From contig NZ_MOAK01000087.1 of the NCBI RefSeq assembly GCF_003732485.1, positions 151,912-215,911 of the forward strand: a stretch of DNA of 64,000 nt, given 5' to 3'. Within the stretch, counting starts at the first letter, position 1; each line of letters begins with the position of its first letter. Below the pieces are notes generated by a model. That model worked only from the letters and a program-made list of their open reading frames with translations, did no database searches and was not told where the DNA came from. A program made the position numbers and the translations under genes. This DNA comes from Pseudomonas protegens. GTDB lineage: Bacteria > Pseudomonadota > Gammaproteobacteria > Pseudomonadales > Pseudomonadaceae. This document shows, one piece after another, positions 51,976-61,954 of this stretch.

Positions 51976-52476
51976 TCAAGCCCGGGACAGGGGATGTTCT
52001 GGCATTTCACTGCGTATCTGCTGCAGATCCTTGTGCGGGATCACGTAGGTGCGGGCGAGCATATCGCCTATTCGCTGGCAGCGGCTTGATTCCGCACAGG
52101 CCATCAGCGGGACAAAGGCGAACGCGGCCTCCAGATGGCGGGTGGCGCTTCTGATCAGTACCTGGATCAGCGTCGGCGGCGTCCCGGCGGCGTTGATCAC
52201 CACCAGGCCCAGGGCGCACTTGCCGGGCGTGCGGCCCTTGAAGAAATACTCCCAGGCCACGAAGTACAAGGGCCAGACCAGCATGAACAGCATTGAATGA
52301 AGGTAGGGCTCCAGCCCCGTCTGTTGCTCGAGGTCGAGCAAGCGTCTGACCGGCTGCAACGCCAGCACCCCGTGCAGGCTCAGCGACAGGAGCAAATACA
52401 CCGCCAGCGCCAGCACCTGGTCGAGCATGAAGGCGGCGGCGCGGCGCAGGATCAGTTGGGTTCTTGAGACTTCCAT
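51976..52476 (-). CDS. RDD family membrane protein
   Basis: A 166-residue protein with an RDD domain. The name-giving motif is partly degenerate (ILRRAAAFMLDQVLALAVY: R and D present). About three membrane spans and the conserved GRTPGKCALGLVVINAAG loop are visible. The start is the ATG at 52476 (MEVSRTQLIL); the upstream frame extension shares no similarity to the family. Role unknown; RDD proteins have been linked to ion transport or stress. Confidence 0.82.
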   Translation of the reverse strand: MEVSRTQLILRRAAAFMLDQVLALAVYLLLSLSLHGVLALQPVRRLLDLEQQTGLEPYLHSMLFMLVWPLYFVAWEYFFKGRTPGKCALGLVVINAAGTPPTLIQVLIRSATRHLEAAFAFVPLMACAESSRCQRIGDMLARTYVIPHKDLQQIRSEMPEHPLSRA

Positions 52477-52577: not shown

Positions 52578-53486
52578 TCAGCTGACCACGGGCTGTTCGC
52601 GACCGATCTCGCTGCGCAACTGGGCAATCAGGTGCAGGCAGTGGGTGAGCCCCGGCGACGGCTCGCCGACCCGGCGGCTGAGGATGATCGGCGAGGTGGC
52701 CTCGGGTTCCTGCAGCGGGCAAAAACCGATGTCGTCGCGATGCAGCACCTGCACCGAGGCCGGCACCAGGGTGATGCCGATGCCGGCGCCCACCAGGCCG
52801 ATGGCGGTCTGCAGTTCATTGGTCCATTGGGCGATCTTCAGGTTCAGGCCGCGGGCGTTGAACAGCGCGATCACGTGATCGGCGTAGCTCGGGCGCGGGT
52901 TGGCCGGATACAGCACGAAGGGCTCGCTGGCCAGTTGCTCAAGGCTCACCTCTTGTCCCAGCAAGGGGTGGCCGGCGGGCAGGGCGACCACCAGCCGGTC
53001 CTCGGTCAGCACCTTCTGCACGATGGCCGGGTCGTCGATGTGGATGCGCCCGAAGCCGATGTCGATGCGTCCCGCCTTCAAGGCTTCCACCTGTTGCAGG
53101 GTGGTCATTTCCGACAATCCCAGCTCCAGTTCCAGGGTCTCGTTGCTGCGCAGGCGGCGGATCAATTGCGGCAGCACGCCGTACAGGGTCGAAGGGGCAA
53201 AGCCGATGCCCAGCCAGGTCTTGTGCCCCAGGCCAATGCGCCGGGTGTTGTCGCAGACCTTGCCCAATTGCTCCAGCACCCGGTTGGAATGTTCATAGAA
53301 AAACCGCCCGGCGGCGGTCAGGCGCAACGGCCGGCCACGCTCCAGCAACAGCACCCCCAGCTCGTCCTCCAACTGCTGGATCTGCCGGCTCAAGGGCGGC
53401 TGGGCGATGTGCAGGCGCTCGGCGGCGCGGGTGAAATTGAGGGTTTCCCCCAGCACCTGGAAGTAGCGCAGATGACGCAGTTCCAT
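52578..53486 (-). CDS. catR: LysR-type regulator CatR of the catechol operon
   Basis: A 302-residue LysR-type regulator. The winged helix-turn-helix spans about residues 5-63 (NFTRAAERLHIAQPPLSRQI), followed by the effector domain that in CatR binds cis,cis-muconate. The start at 53486 (MELRHLRYFQVLGETLNF) leaves 119 bp to the divergent catB, the classical catR-catB arrangement. A perfect ATAC-N7-GTAT site lies 25-39 bp upstream, so CatR probably represses itself and activates catBCA. BenM is a close relative, but position favours CatR. Confidence 0.9.
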   Translation of the reverse strand: MELRHLRYFQVLGETLNFTRAAERLHIAQPPLSRQIQQLEDELGVLLLERGRPLRLTAAGRFFYEHSNRVLEQLGKVCDNTRRIGLGHKTWLGIGFAPSTLYGVLPQLIRRLRSNETLELELGLSEMTTLQQVEALKAGRIDIGFGRIHIDDPAIVQKVLTEDRLVVALPAGHPLLGQEVSLEQLASEPFVLYPANPRPSYADHVIALFNARGLNLKIAQWTNELQTAIGLVGAGIGITLVPASVQVLHRDDIGFCPLQEPEATSPIILSRRVGEPSPGLTHCLHLIAQLRSEIGREQPVVS

Positions 53487-56151: not shown

Positions 56152-56159
56152 AATAAGAA
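56152..56159 (+). promoter_or_regulatory. Candidate Hfq/Crc site in the benR leader
   Basis: AATAAGAA fits AANAANAA exactly and lies 19 bases before the benR ATG, where bound Hfq/Crc would block initiation. Crc control of benR translation is known in P. putida. Confidence 0.6.
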
Positions 56160-56178: not shown

Positions 56179-57135
56179 ATGCAGATGCATCTGTTGAGTG
56201 AGCGCAGCAGCGTGTTTGTTCAAGCCGATCCCTATGCCGTATCCGGTTACGTCAACCAGCACGTGGGCAGCCACTGCATCCGCCTGCCCCGGGCCGGCCA
56301 TCCCCAGGCCAGCCTGCAACACCGGGCCCTGGCCAGCCTGGATTTGTGCAGCATCAGCTACGGCGCCAGCGTGCGCGTCACCTCGCCGGCCCTGGAAAGC
56401 ATCTACCACTTGCAAGTACTGCTGCGGGGCCACTGCCGGTGGCGTGGCCCGGGCCAGGAGCACTACTTCGCCCCGGGGGAACTGCTGCTGATCAACCCCG
56501 ACGACCCGGTGGACCTGACCTATTCCGACGACTGCGAAAAATTCATCATCAAGATTCCCACCCACCTGGTGGAAAACGCCTGCCAGGAACAGCGCTGGCA
56601 GTACCCGGGGCAGGGCGTGCGCTTTCTGCGCCAGCGCTACCAACTGCAGGAACTGGAAGGCTTCGTGCCCTTGCTGAGCCTGCTGTGCCAGGAAGCCGAA
56701 GCCCTGGAAAGCATGCCCAAGGTCCAGGAGCACTACGCGCACATCCTGGTGGGCAAACTGCTGGGGCTGATGCAGACCAACGTGCAGCGCGGTGCCCTGG
56801 GCGCCTCGGCGGCGACCTTCGAACGGATTGCCGACTACATCGAACGCAACCTCAAGCACGACATCGGATGCGAAGAACTGGCGCAACAGGCGCGCATGAG
56901 CCTGCGCTCGCTGTACGCGCTGTTCGAACGCAACGCCCGCACCACGCCGAAGAACTACATCCGCCAGCAGAAACTGCAACGGGTGCACGCCTGCCTCAGC
57001 GACCCGCACAGCCCGGTGCGCAACGTCACCGAACTGGCCCTGGATTTCGGCTTCCTGCACCTTGGGCGTTTTGCCCAAAGCTACCGCCAGCAATACGGCG
57101 AACTGCCCTCCGACACCCTCAAGCGTCGGCACTGA
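56179..57135 (+). CDS. benR: AraC/XylS-family activator BenR
   Basis: A 318-residue regulator with an N-terminal effector-binding domain (about 1-200) and a C-terminal double helix-turn-helix (about 215-318: IGCEELAQQARMSLRSLYAL, then VRNVTELALDFGFLHLGRFA). It closely resembles XylS of the TOL plasmid and activates benABCD with benzoate. It lies between the cat and ben operons on the plus strand. The ribosome site is weak (GAGTGACCCGATC). An ATG at 56185 is a second possible start. Confidence 0.92.
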   Translation: MQMHLLSERSSVFVQADPYAVSGYVNQHVGSHCIRLPRAGHPQASLQHRALASLDLCSISYGASVRVTSPALESIYHLQVLLRGHCRWRGPGQEHYFAPGELLLINPDDPVDLTYSDDCEKFIIKIPTHLVENACQEQRWQYPGQGVRFLRQRYQLQELEGFVPLLSLLCQEAEALESMPKVQEHYAHILVGKLLGLMQTNVQRGALGASAATFERIADYIERNLKHDIGCEELAQQARMSLRSLYALFERNARTTPKNYIRQQKLQRVHACLSDPHSPVRNVTELALDFGFLHLGRFAQSYRQQYGELPSDTLKRRH

Positions 57136-57154
57136 TCCTCTGGCATCGGCCTCT

Positions 57155-57239
57155 TGTAGGAGCTGGCTTGCCAGCGAAGAGGCCTGCAGGCTCAGCACCC
57201 CATCCAAGGGCCTTTTCGCCGGCAAGCCGGCTTCTACAC
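57155..57239. repeat. REP pair (BIME-like) between benR and benA
   Basis: Two REP cores in inverse orientation, 57155-57178 (plus) and 57215-57239 (minus), with 36 bases between them. They begin 20 bp after the benR stop and end 19 bp before the first BenR box, which separates the benR transcript from the ben promoter. Confidence 0.88.
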
Positions 57240-57257
57240 AGGCCACGTCGGCGCTTT

Positions 57258-57320
57258 TGCAGAAAACGGATACAGGTGTGCACGCATTGGCTATTGCCCG
57301 TTCCAAGCCCGCCCTAGCAT
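57258..57320 (+). promoter_or_regulatory. Pm-like benA promoter with two BenR/XylS boxes
   Basis: Two exact TGCA-N6-GGNTA boxes, 57258-57272 (TGCA GAAAAC GGATA) and 57279-57293 (TGCA CGCATT GGCTA), begin 21 bp apart. A -10 box TAGCAT (57315-57320) follows 21 bases after the second. This is the layout I recall for the XylS-dependent Pm promoter of the TOL plasmid (-10 TAGGCT). The start point would be near 57327. Confidence 0.82.
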
Positions 57321-57331
57321 GGCCCTGCCTG

Positions 57332-57342
57332 AATAAAAACAA
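57332..57342 (+). promoter_or_regulatory. Candidate Hfq/Crc site at the benA ribosome site
   Basis: AATAAAAACAA holds two overlapping AANAANAA matches directly before the GGAGG ribosome site of benA. It is ideally placed to repress benA translation during catabolite repression. Confidence 0.55.
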
Positions 57343-57356
57343 TGGAGGCGGCGGCC

Positions 57357-58721
57357 ATGTCCCTGCGACCCGAATACCTGCATTCCCTGCTTGAAGAAGA
57401 CCCCGACCAGGGCGTCTACCGCTGCAAGCGGGAGATGTTCACCGACCCCCGGCTGTTCGACCTGGAGATGCAGCACATCTTCGAAGGCAACTGGCTGTAC
57501 CTGGCCCACGAAAGCCAGATCCCCAATCCCAACGACTACTACAGCACCACCATGGGCCGGCAGCCGGTGTTCATCGCGCGCAACAAGAACGGCGAGCTCA
57601 ATGCCTTCATCAACGCCTGCAGCCATCGCGGCGCCATGCTCTGCCGGCACAAGACCGGCAACAAGGCCTCCTTCACCTGCCCGTTCCACGGCTGGACCTT
57701 CAACAACACCGGCAAGCTGCTCAAGGTCAAGGACGCGGCCGCCGCGGGCTACCCGGCCAGCTTCAACTGCGAAGGCTCCCACGACCTGACCCGCGTCGCG
57801 CGCTTCGAGTCCTACCGTGGCTTTCTGTTCGGCAGCCTCAACCCCGACGTGTTGCCCCTGGTGGAACACCTGGGGGAGTCGGCGAAGATCATCGACATGA
57901 TCGTCGACCAGTCCGCCGACGGCCTGGAAGTACTGCGCGGTTCCTCCAGCTACATCTACGAAGGCAACTGGAAGCTCACCGCCGAGAACGGCGCCGACGG
58001 CTACCACGTCAGCTCGGTGCACTGGAACTACGCGGCCACCCAGAACCAGCGCAAGCAGCGCGAGGCCGGGGAAGACATCCGCACCATGAGCGCCGGCACC
58101 TGGGCCAAGCAGGGCGGCGGTTTCTACTCCTTTGACAAGGGCCACATGCTGCTCTGGACCCGCTGGTCCAACCCCGAAGACCGCCCGCTCTACGAGCGCC
58201 GCGACGAACTGGCCCAGGACTTTGGCCAGGCCCGCGCCGATTGGATGATCGAGAACTCGCGCAACCTGTGCCTGTACCCCAACGTCTACCTGATGGACCA
58301 GTTCAGCTCGCAGATCCGCATTGCCCGGCCGATCTCCGTGGACCGCACCGAAATCACCATCTACTGCATCGCCCCCAAGGGCGAGAGCGACGAAGCCCGG
58401 GCCCGGCGCATCCGCCAGTACGAAGACTTCTTCAACGTCAGCGGCATGGCCACCCCGGACGACCTGGAGGAATTCCGCTCCTGCCAGCTCGGCTACCAGG
58501 GCAGCACCACGGCCTGGAACGACATGTCCCGCGGCGCCGAGCATTGGGTCCAGGGGGCGGACGACGCAGCGAAAGAAATCGACCTGCAACCGATCCTCAG
58601 CGGGGTGCGCACCGAGGACGAAGGCCTGTTCGTGATGCAGCACAAGTACTGGCAGCAAACCATGCTCGCGGCCCTGGAGCTTGAAGCCTCTCGCCGGATC
58701 GACGTGGAGGCCGTGCAATGA
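57357..58721 (+). CDS. benA: Benzoate 1,2-dioxygenase, large (alpha) subunit
   Basis: A 454-residue Rieske oxygenase subunit that adds O2 to benzoate. Rieske ligands are CSHRG (Cys88, His90) and CPFHGW (Cys108, His111); the mononuclear iron site is [15 protein letters not shown] (His217, His222). The start is the ATG at 57357 ([11 protein letters not shown]), 8 nt from GGAGG. An ATG five codons earlier overlaps that ribosome site. benB overlaps by ATGA. Confidence 0.97.
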
Positions 58722-59206
58722 CCATTTCCTACGACGCCGTGCGCGATTTCCTGTACCGCGAAGCCCGCTACCTGGACGACAAGGAGTGGGACAGCTGGCT
58801 GGAACTCTACGCCCCGGACGCCACCTTCTGGATGCCCTCCTGGGATGACAGCGACCAGTTGACCGAAGACCCGCAGCGGGAAATCTCGCTGATCTGGTAC
58901 GGCAACCGCAGCGGCCTGGAAGACCGGGTGTTCCGCATCAAGACCGAGCGCTCCAGCGCCAGCATTCCCGACACCCGCACCTCCCACAACCTGAGCAATA
59001 TCGAGCTGCTGGAGCAGGGCGACGGCCAGTGCAAGCTGCGCTTCAACTGGCACACCCTGAGCTTTCGCTACAAGACCGTGGACAGCTACTTCGGTTGCAG
59101 CTTCTACACCCTCGACCTGCGCGGCGAAAACCCGCTGATCCTGGCCAAGAAAGTCATCCTGAAGAACGACTACGTTCGCCAGGTCGTCGATATCTACCAC
59201 CTCTGA
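58718..59206 (+). CDS. benB: Benzoate 1,2-dioxygenase, small (beta) subunit
   Basis: A 162-residue structural subunit of the alpha3beta3 oxygenase with the cone-shaped NTF2-like fold. Family stretches: [20 protein letters not shown] and [20 protein letters not shown]. It overlaps benA by four bases and is followed 10 bp later by benC. Confidence 0.96.
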
Positions 59207-59216
59207 GGCGACCGCC

Positions 59217-60230
59217 ATGAGCCATCAAATCGCACTCAATTTCGAAGACGGCGTCACCCGTTTCGTCAACGCCAACCCGGGCGAAACCGTGGCCGACGCC
59301 GCCTACCGCCAGGGCATCAATATTCCCCTGGACTGCCGCGACGGCGCCTGTGGCACCTGCAAGTGCCTGGCCGAAGCCGGGCGCTACGAGCTGGGGGAGG
59401 ACTACATCGAAGACGCCCTGAGCGCCGACGAGGCCGAGCAGGGCTTTGTCCTCACCTGCCAGATGCGCGCCTTGAGCGACTGCGTGGTGCGGGTGCCGGC
59501 CTCGTCCCAGGTCTGCCGGGCCGGGCAGGCCACCTTCCAGGCCAGCATCAGCGCGGTGCGCCAGCTGTCCGACAGCACCATCGCCCTGTCGATCAAGGGC
59601 GAGGCCCTGAACCAGCTGGCGTTCCTGCCGGGGCAGTACGTCAACCTCGGCGTGCCTGGCAGCGAGCAGACCCGCGCCTATTCCTTCAGCTCCCTGCAGC
59701 GCGATGGCGAAGTCAGTTTCCTGATCCGCAATGTGCCCGGCGGCCTGATGAGCAGCTTCCTCAGCAGTCTCGCCAAAGCCGGCGACAGCATGACCCTGGC
59801 CGGGCCCCTGGGCAGCTTCTACCTGCGGGACATCCGCCGGCCCTTGCTGTTGCTGGCCGGTGGCACCGGGCTGGCGCCGTTCACCGCCATGCTGGAGAAG
59901 ATTGCCGAGCAGGGCAGCGAGCACCCGTTGCATTTGATCTATGGCGTGACCAACGACTTCGACCTGGTGGAACTGGAGCGCCTGGAAGACTTTGCCGCGC
60001 GCATCCCGCAGTTCAGCTTCAGCGCCTGCGTGGCCAACCCCGAAAGCCAGTACCCGCGCAAGGGTTACGTGACCCAGCATATCGAACCGGCGCACCTCAA
60101 CCAGGGCGATGTGGACGTCTACCTGTGCGGGCCGCCGCCAATGGTGGAGGCGGTGAGCCAGTTCATCCGCGAACAGGGCATCGCCCCGGCGAACTTCTAC
60201 TACGAGAAGTTCGCCGCCAGCGCCGCCTGA
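59217..60230 (+). CDS. benC: Benzoate 1,2-dioxygenase electron-transfer component
   Basis: A 337-residue reductase with an N-terminal plant-type [2Fe-2S] ferredoxin (Cys40, Cys45, Cys48 in CRDGACGTC and Cys81), an FAD domain (TRAYSFSS) and an NAD domain (LLAGGTGLAPFTAM, YLCGPPPMVEA). It passes electrons from NADH to BenAB. A REP pair lies between it and benD. Confidence 0.97.
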   Translation: MSHQIALNFEDGVTRFVNANPGETVADAAYRQGINIPLDCRDGACGTCKCLAEAGRYELGEDYIEDALSADEAEQGFVLTCQMRALSDCVVRVPASSQVCRAGQATFQASISAVRQLSDSTIALSIKGEALNQLAFLPGQYVNLGVPGSEQTRAYSFSSLQRDGEVSFLIRNVPGGLMSSFLSSLAKAGDSMTLAGPLGSFYLRDIRRPLLLLAGGTGLAPFTAMLEKIAEQGSEHPLHLIYGVTNDFDLVELERLEDFAARIPQFSFSACVANPESQYPRKGYVTQHIEPAHLNQGDVDVYLCGPPPMVEAVSQFIREQGIAPANFYYEKFAASAA

Positions 60231-60245
60231 AGAGCGCCTCGCCGC

Positions 60246-60328
60246 TGTAGGAGCTGGCTTGCCAGCGAAGGCGTCCATCAGGGTGCTGCAAGGCTCGCGG
60301 GCCCTTTCGCCGGCAAGCCGGCTCCTAC
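60246..60328. repeat. REP pair (BIME-like) between benC and benD
   Basis: Inverse REP cores at 60246-60270 (plus) and 60306-60328 (minus). They occupy most of the 142-bp gap within the ben operon and could make a stem that lowers or uncouples benD expression or stabilises the benABC message. Confidence 0.88.
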
Positions 60329-60372
60329 GTCGGGTGATGTGCTCTCCATCTTTTTGTACTCACGAGGTTTCC

Positions 60373-61146
60373 ATGAACCGTTTCCACAACCAAGTCGCCC
60401 TGGTCACCGGTGCCGCCCAGGGCATCGGCCGTCGCGTTGCCGAACGCCTGGCCGAAGAGGGCGCCCGCGTGGTGCTGGTGGATCGCTCCGAACTGGTCTT
60501 CGAACTGGCCACTGCACTCAGCCCCCGCTACCCGGTGCTGGCCCTGACCGCCGACCTGGAGCAGTACAGCGAATGCAGCCGGATCATGGCGGCGGCCATC
60601 GCCCACTTCGGCCGCCTCGACATCCTCATCAACAACGTCGGCGGCACCATCTGGGCCAAGCCCTTCGAACACTACGAGCCCGCGCAGATCGAAGCCGAAG
60701 TCCGTCGCTCATTGTTCCCCACCCTGTGGTGCTGCCACGCCGCCTTGCCGCAGATGCTGGAGCAGGGCCGCGGCGCCATCGTCAACGTCTCGTCCATCGC
60801 CACCCGCAGCCTCAACCGCGTGCCCTACGGCGCGGCCAAGGGCGGCATCAATGCACTCACTGCGTGCCTGGCCTTCGAAACCGCCGGCCGCGGCGTGCGG
60901 GTCAACGCCACCGCTCCCGGCGGCACCGAGGCACCGCCGCGGCGCATTCCGCGCAACAGCGCCGAGCCCAGTACCGAAGAGCAGGCCTGGTACCAGCAGA
61001 TCGTCGACCAGACCCTGGATAGCAGCCTGATGCACCGCTACGGCAGCGTTGACGAGCAGGCGGCGGCGATCCTGTTCCTGGCCTCCGACGAAGCCTCCTA
61101 TATCACCGGCACGGTGCTGCCGGTGGGCGGCGGCGATCAGGGCTGA
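60373..61146 (+). CDS. benD: Benzoate cis-diol dehydrogenase
   Basis: A 257-residue SDR enzyme of the BenD/XylL group that oxidises and decarboxylates 1,6-dihydroxycyclohexadiene carboxylate to catechol, with NAD. Cofactor motif VTGAAQGIGRRVAER, NNVGG, and the catalytic YxxxK in VPYGAAKGG are clear. The start is the ATG at 60373 (MNRFHNQVAL); the longer frame runs through the REP pair. It ends the ben operon; no benzoate transporter or porin gene follows. Confidence 0.95.
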   Translation: MNRFHNQVALVTGAAQGIGRRVAERLAEEGARVVLVDRSELVFELATALSPRYPVLALTADLEQYSECSRIMAAAIAHFGRLDILINNVGGTIWAKPFEHYEPAQIEAEVRRSLFPTLWCCHAALPQMLEQGRGAIVNVSSIATRSLNRVPYGAAKGGINALTACLAFETAGRGVRVNATAPGGTEAPPRRIPRNSAEPSTEEQAWYQQIVDQTLDSSLMHRYGSVDEQAAAILFLASDEASYITGTVLPVGGGDQG

Positions 61147-61791: not shown

Positions 61792-61892
61792 TGTAGGAGT
61801 CGGCTGCCGACGAAGGCGATCTTACGGACGCTTTCACCGGCAAGCCGGCTCCTACGGGGGCGTGCTTGTGTAGAAGCTGGCTTGCCAGCGAA
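61792..61892. repeat. Cluster of three REP elements
   Basis: Cores at 61792-61815 (plus, a variant with CGGCTGCCGACGAAG), 61832-61855 (minus) and 61869-61892 (plus, TGTAGAAGCTGGCTTGCCAG then CGAA). They fill most of the gap between the hypothetical gene and the sensor kinase gene. Confidence 0.85.
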
Positions 61893-61954
61893 TACGCCCG
61901 CAAGGCCGCCCCCATTCCCGAGCGGCGCACAGGATAGGCCCTTCGCGCCGCCGA

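Follow-up and report, generated by a model that had tools for sequence, protein, structure and literature searches.

A probable BenR-activated promoter with two direct boxes upstream of benABCD in Pseudomonas protegens

The locus and its promoter boxes

In a 64-kb window of a Pseudomonas protegens draft genome (the whole stretch of DNA analyzed, 64,000 nucleotides), the genes catB, catC, and catA are followed by an AraC/XylS-family regulator gene, benR, and then by benA, benB, benC, and benD. benR and benABCD are co-directional, and between the two sit two direct repeats matching TGCA-N6-GGNTA and a -10 element (Table 1). We consider this element very probably to be Pben, the BenR-activated promoter of benABCD, because the boxes and their spacing are exact, no other exact copy of the tandem occurs in the draft genome, and the regulator gene and benABCD flank the boxes.

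Table 1. Features of the ben promoter region, with positions in the window
Feature	Position	Strand	Description
Distal BenR box TGCAGAAAACGGATA	57258-57272	+	Exact match; AAAC core also kept in relatives
Proximal BenR box TGCACGCATTGGCTA	57279-57293	+	Exact match; 6-bp gap to distal box
Would-be -35 hexamer TATTGC	57292-57297	+	Read from sequence assuming a 17-bp spacer; weak; overlaps proximal box by 2 bp
-10 element TAGCAT	57315-57320	+	21 nt (57294-57314) past proximal box; start site predicted
AAN repeat AATAAAAACAAT	57332-57343	+	Putative Hfq/Crc-type site; immediately 5' of Shine-Dalgarno GGAGG (57344-57348)
benR	56179-57135	+	AraC/XylS-family activator, 318 aa; Pfam AraC_binding_2 and HTH_18; 59% identity to XylS of pWW0, the activator of Pm
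benA	57357-58721	+	Benzoate 1,2-dioxygenase large subunit; TIGR03229, 892 bits, over cut-off
benB	58718-59206	+	NCBIfam equivalog over cut-off
benC	59217-60230	+	NCBIfam equivalog over cut-off
benD	60376-61146	+	NCBIfam equivalog over cut-off
REPIN-like inverted repeat	57155-57238	.	Two facing REP sequences, between benR and promoter

A motif search found exactly two TGCA-N6-GGNTA matches in the window, both on the forward strand and 21 bp apart from start to start, with the 6-bp gap CAGGTG between them. An earlier note on this DNA had reported two exact boxes at this distance and a TAGCAT 21 bases after the second, and both the sequence and the motif search agree with it. Taken singly, such boxes are insignificant, with 1.08 expected per shuffle of the window. 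The 36-bp tandem, by comparison, is matched exactly only here in the host draft genome (7,225,124 bases in 92 contigs, 96.5% complete); a search of that genome for a second BenR target found no other exact tandem, and the four further matches that appeared when two mismatches were allowed (reversed-pattern control, one) are taken as chance. The arrangement is that of a recognizable promoter class: two direct boxes, offset by about 21 bp and set at a constant distance from the -10 element, a XylS-family activator gene encoded with the operon, and benzoate/toluate 1,2-dioxygenase genes directly downstream.

The products of catB, catC, and catA (muconate cycloisomerase, muconolactone isomerase, and catechol 1,2-dioxygenase) all score over their NCBIfam cut-offs, and a divergent LysR-type gene at 52578-53480, for which all 25 NCBIfam matches shown fall under the cut-off, is probably catR. 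No NCBIfam match to the 56179-57135 protein is named BenR (the best, AndR, is under its cut-off), so the name benR is given on homology and position. The gene names proposed in the earlier note, with benR just upstream and benA downstream of the boxes, are right, as NCBIfam and Pfam identify an AraC/XylS-family regulator followed by benABCD. For benA, sequence features make the ATG at 57357 the probable start; the start at 57342 given by the open reading frame caller is disfavored because it overlaps the Shine-Dalgarno sequence and because relatives share a similar spacing from Shine-Dalgarno sequence to ATG.

Pben across Pseudomonas

An exact-match search found the tandem in 148 of 398 Pseudomonas genomes, with 0 matches in every row for the reversed-pattern control, and benA scored over its family cut-off in 182 of the 398. 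Among the matches listed (150 tandems, and 150 benA genes from 149 genomes), an exact tandem lies 79 to 87 bp upstream of the benA model start for 101 of the 150 benA genes. The remaining 49 upstream regions comprise 5 with an exact pair at a gap of 6 bp, 12 with an exact pair at a gap of 7 bp, and 32 with a pair carrying one to four mismatches of 16 at either gap, so that the 150 listed genes have 118 exact pairs and 32 mismatched ones. Shuffles of those 49 regions gave best scores of four to eight mismatches, four being reached in 4 of 196; the single Pben case with four mismatches is therefore assigned by its position alone. The 7-bp gap occurs upstream of 17 of the 150 listed benA genes (e.g., L137, L142, and L143), with the same 21 nt to the -10 element and with both boxes exact in 12 of the 17. 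Near benR, where the tandem was sought within 700 bp after the gene, 65 of the best 80 of 272 loci carry it in exact form.

Tandems that do not precede a listed benA make up 49 of the 150 matches listed, which partly reflects benA genes beyond the 150 listed. Those checked lie before a porin gene (two), a permease gene (one), a chemoreceptor-like gene (one), or an unverified permease gene (one), or are copies of Pm, the XylS-activated promoter of the TOL plasmid; a few with GGTTA (e.g., in G323, G217, and G308) are probably chance. The two-box layout is thus the usual Pben layout of the genus, ordinary and already described: BenR-dependent Pben promoters (PMC1360089, PMC2907835, PMC6449761) and the BenR consensus TGCA-N6-GGNTA (PMC6449761) are in print. 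What the locus illustrates is that a known promoter class can be recognized from raw sequence, Pm being one member of a family common on Pseudomonas chromosomes.

Could the boxes be chance matches, and benABCD be transcribed from a point farther upstream, for instance as read-through from catBCA-benR? Shuffling the window 100 times gave at least two single boxes in 28 cases, benR and benABCD point the same way, and no terminator-like site was found at 57100-57400. Against this, the draft genome has no second exact tandem, many Pseudomonas genomes have the tandem at a similar place before benA, and a strong REPIN hairpin stands between benR and the promoter. We therefore give this explanation next to no credence.

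The published relatives point to Pben as well. In Pseudomonas fluorescens MB214, Pben::lacZ could no longer be induced once the upstream benR had been inactivated, the cells ceased to metabolize benzoate, and the mapped start was consistent with the putative -10 and -35 elements (PMC1360089); a benR mutant of Pseudomonas stutzeri A1501 lost both growth on benzoate and benA induction (PMC2907835). Pben of MB214 and of A1501 has XylS-type BenR sites just upstream of the -35 and -10 elements and benABCD downstream, and benR lies upstream in the same direction in MB214 and in Pseudomonas putida (PMC1360089, PMC2907835); the window has the same arrangement, with a putative -35 element, and differs in that catR-catBCA lies directly upstream of benR in this genome.

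Three observations weigh against the assignment to Pben. A consensus scan around the boxes found no sigma-70-like promoter pair and no recognizable -35 element, which is as expected of an activator-dependent promoter, though no proof of one. Further, in 15 of the best 80 of 272 benR loci the 700-bp search found no exact tandem: three of these run into contig ends, one has a tandem with two mismatches, one is cut by the 700-bp limit, one has a benR reading that is broken early, and nine have none within 700 bp. Finally, Pben of MB214 is described with a 5-bp separation and one imperfect box (PMC1360089), whereas the window has two exact boxes with 6 bp between them; the layout thus shows some variation.

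For BenR binding and bending, benzoate induction, the start site, and Hfq/Crc action, we reason from relatives and from XylS at Pm. With benzoate bound, two BenR molecules would occupy the two direct 15-bp boxes and bend the DNA, holding RNA polymerase on a promoter that has a recognizable -10 element (TAGCAT) and a poor -35 element, the place of which the proximal box would overlap. The promoter would be nearly silent without benzoate or BenR, and in the mRNA the A-rich repeat beside the ribosome-binding site would let Hfq/Crc prevent translation as long as better carbon sources are available. The earlier note had predicted tight benzoate-inducible control; homology, with the MB214 knock-out, supports control by BenR, but "tight" does not stand, given that a plasmid-borne BenR/Pben system in P. 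putida had a high basal output (PMC8711041).

Conservation beyond the motif was gauged in 81 non-redundant promoters that had been selected for the exact tandem, so that the specified positions are conserved by that selection. At unselected positions the mean information content is 1.58 bits in the N6 of the distal box, 1.56 in the -10 hexamer (TAGCAT in 64 of the 81), and 1.02 in the leader, and it is lower, 0.85 bits, in the N6 of the proximal box. Pben of P. putida may have a third operator, but the scan gave no support for one here: at these exact-tandem loci the 60 bp before the distal box carried no conserved signal (mean 0.06 bits), and in the window the REPIN-like repeat fills the stretch where such a more distal operator would sit.

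A set of 132 distinct promoter segments shows the same asymmetry. Of these, 89 have an exact tandem with a 6-bp gap, 16 have a 7-bp gap, and 27 are degenerate; because the segments are related by descent, the counts are not independent. A benA-like start is read into from 88 of the 89 exact gap-6 segments. The distal box has the core AAAC in 76 of the 89 gap-6, 15 of the 16 gap-7, and 15 of the 27 degenerate segments, whereas none of the 132 has it in the same slot of the proximal box. Of the 132 distal boxes, 131 finish with GGATA; of the proximal boxes, 117 finish with GGATA and 15 with GGCTA. TAnnnT follows the proximal box at a distance of 21 nt in 85 of 89, 16 of 16, and 24 of 27 segments of the three classes, respectively. 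The gap-7 class keeps the distal core and the 21-nt spacing and differs in the inter-box gap. Across the Pseudomonas genomes sampled, conservation covers most of the 15 bp in the distal box (TGCA-[CG][AT]AAAC-GGATA) and mainly the eight canonical positions in the proximal box.

These patterns raise the tentative possibility, which we hold at well under even chance, that the boxes are not equivalent and that the distal one, which BenR would read differently from the proximal one, may be chiefly responsible for recognition or bending, since it is the more widely conserved and since the proximal box keeps its 21 nt to the -10 element whether the gap is 6 or 7 bp. In the reviewed XylS model, one monomer binds the proximal repeat, a second then binds the homologous distal repeat, and the DNA is bent (PMC5481539); the inequality of the boxes, if true, would refine that model. 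We do not claim the asymmetry as unpublished, the literature search having not been aimed at it. Together with the near-constant distance to the -10 element and the flexible gap, it may help engineers of XylS/Pm or BenR/Pben expression systems.

Comparison with Pm and XylS

The earlier note had called this promoter a near copy of Pm. When Pm is read from the pWW0 record NC_003350, the layout is identical: two 15-bp direct repeats, a 6-bp gap, and 21 nt from the proximal box to the -10 hexamer, with an AAN-rich leader in both. The gaps differ at one base (CAGGTG here, CAGGAG in Pm), and the -10 position reads TAGCAT here and TAGGCT in Pm, which we take to be its -10 element. Equality of layout thus stands, but a near copy in sequence does not, because the resemblance outside the boxes is modest and the layout is usual in the genus. 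Between the two 36-mers, 28 of 36 positions are identical; the motif itself fixes 16 of these, which leaves 12 matches among the 20 unspecified positions, and the 21-nt spacers agree at 6 of 21, near chance. The activator gene also lies at the far end of the operon for Pm, whereas here benR is upstream of the ben genes.

The identical spacing and -10 position, with a gap differing at a single base, are what one would expect had the chromosome captured a piece of a TOL-type plasmid, in which case the promoter would be a true copy of Pm or have been one until recently. The near-chance spacer identity argues against this, as do the -10 element and leader, which match Pben of relatives. Exact Pm boxes do turn up in a few genomes (e.g., G078, G269, and G270), and they differ from the boxes here. 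Capture from the TOL plasmid was rejected on the spacer and the -10 sequence, and we think it very improbable. The better view of Pm is as a plasmid-borne representative of this promoter class and not as the model copied here.

Possible cross-talk with XylS had also been suggested. Cross-talk between BenR and XylS at Pben is not new but already a published topic: by the title of Perez-Pantoja et al. 2015, Pben of P. putida mt-2 reportedly responds differentially to the two regulators, and this "differential" response argues against simply assuming equal cross-activation. We think it rather unlikely that XylS, given methylbenzoates, would activate this promoter to the level that it reaches at Pm. 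Both boxes are exact, as in Pm, and, of the positions of XylS that we take to contact DNA, Arg242 and Arg296 are also Arg in this BenR; the differential response reported for P. putida runs the other way, and so do Asn246 and Glu299, which are Ala and Gln in this BenR, so that BenR and XylS need not read DNA alike. Judging from the boxes, the response to XylS could nevertheless be stronger here than at the 32 of 150 listed Pben promoters that carry a box mismatch, this promoter being closer to Pm than those because both of its boxes are exact.

Leader motifs, other tandems, and repeats

At the benA ribosome-binding site the leader carries the AAN repeat AANAANAA, and we take AAN-repeat motifs of this kind to be Hfq/Crc targets. 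The same motif is present in 30 of 31 distinct leaders fitting the search pattern, which did not match leaders with CGGAG. The regulator gene has a possible Hfq/Crc site of its own, AATAAGAA at 56152-56159, 19 nt before the benR start. In P. putida, Crc inhibits translation of the BenR mRNA (PMC8711041).

In other Pseudomonas genomes the same exact tandem precedes transport genes, an OprD-family porin and an MFS permease of the BenK type (L169, L170, and L171), without a counterpart in the host genome as a second exact tandem. The closest host homologues of these genes are a BenK-type permease (36% identical) and an OprD porin (51%), and at 10 loci around the host porin and permease homologues no box pair had fewer than four mismatches, the best having four to five, which is at chance level by shuffles. 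The porin genes adjoining catR in two relatives (L169:764-2026, reverse strand, and L170:7614-8876, forward strand) carry their own exact BenR-type tandem; the first is of the OprD family by Pfam, and the second was judged by eye from similar sequence. In the window, the corresponding position beside catR is taken instead by an RDD-family gene (51976-52437).

In G299, an exact BenR-type tandem (L174:2388-2423, reverse strand) lies before a gene with an MCP signaling domain (L174:1325-2290, reverse strand), the first ten residues of whose product, MRNIDVHEVI, equal those of the BenK-type permease in L171; judging from this sequence, the L174 promoter and start look as if captured from a BenK-type permease gene. 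G126 has a tandem with boxes nearly equal to those of G299. A possible further BenR target is an open reading frame resembling an amino acid permease by eye, downstream of an exact tandem at about position 1514 of L172 (G204).

The repeat between benR and the promoter consists of two facing REP sequences with 30-nt arms that are 87% complementary, and it folds into a long hairpin (-59.6 kcal/mol, z -7.6). It has 104 BLAST matches in its own genome, some of them partial or listed on both strands, from a search in which 40 of 576 first-look candidates were scored, and no terminator-like site was found at it. We call it REPIN-like, taking the name and definition of REPIN to be facing REP sequences in a long hairpin with many genome copies. 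Further REPIN-like inverted repeats lie at 60242-60333, between benC and benD, and at 61815-61910, downstream of benD.
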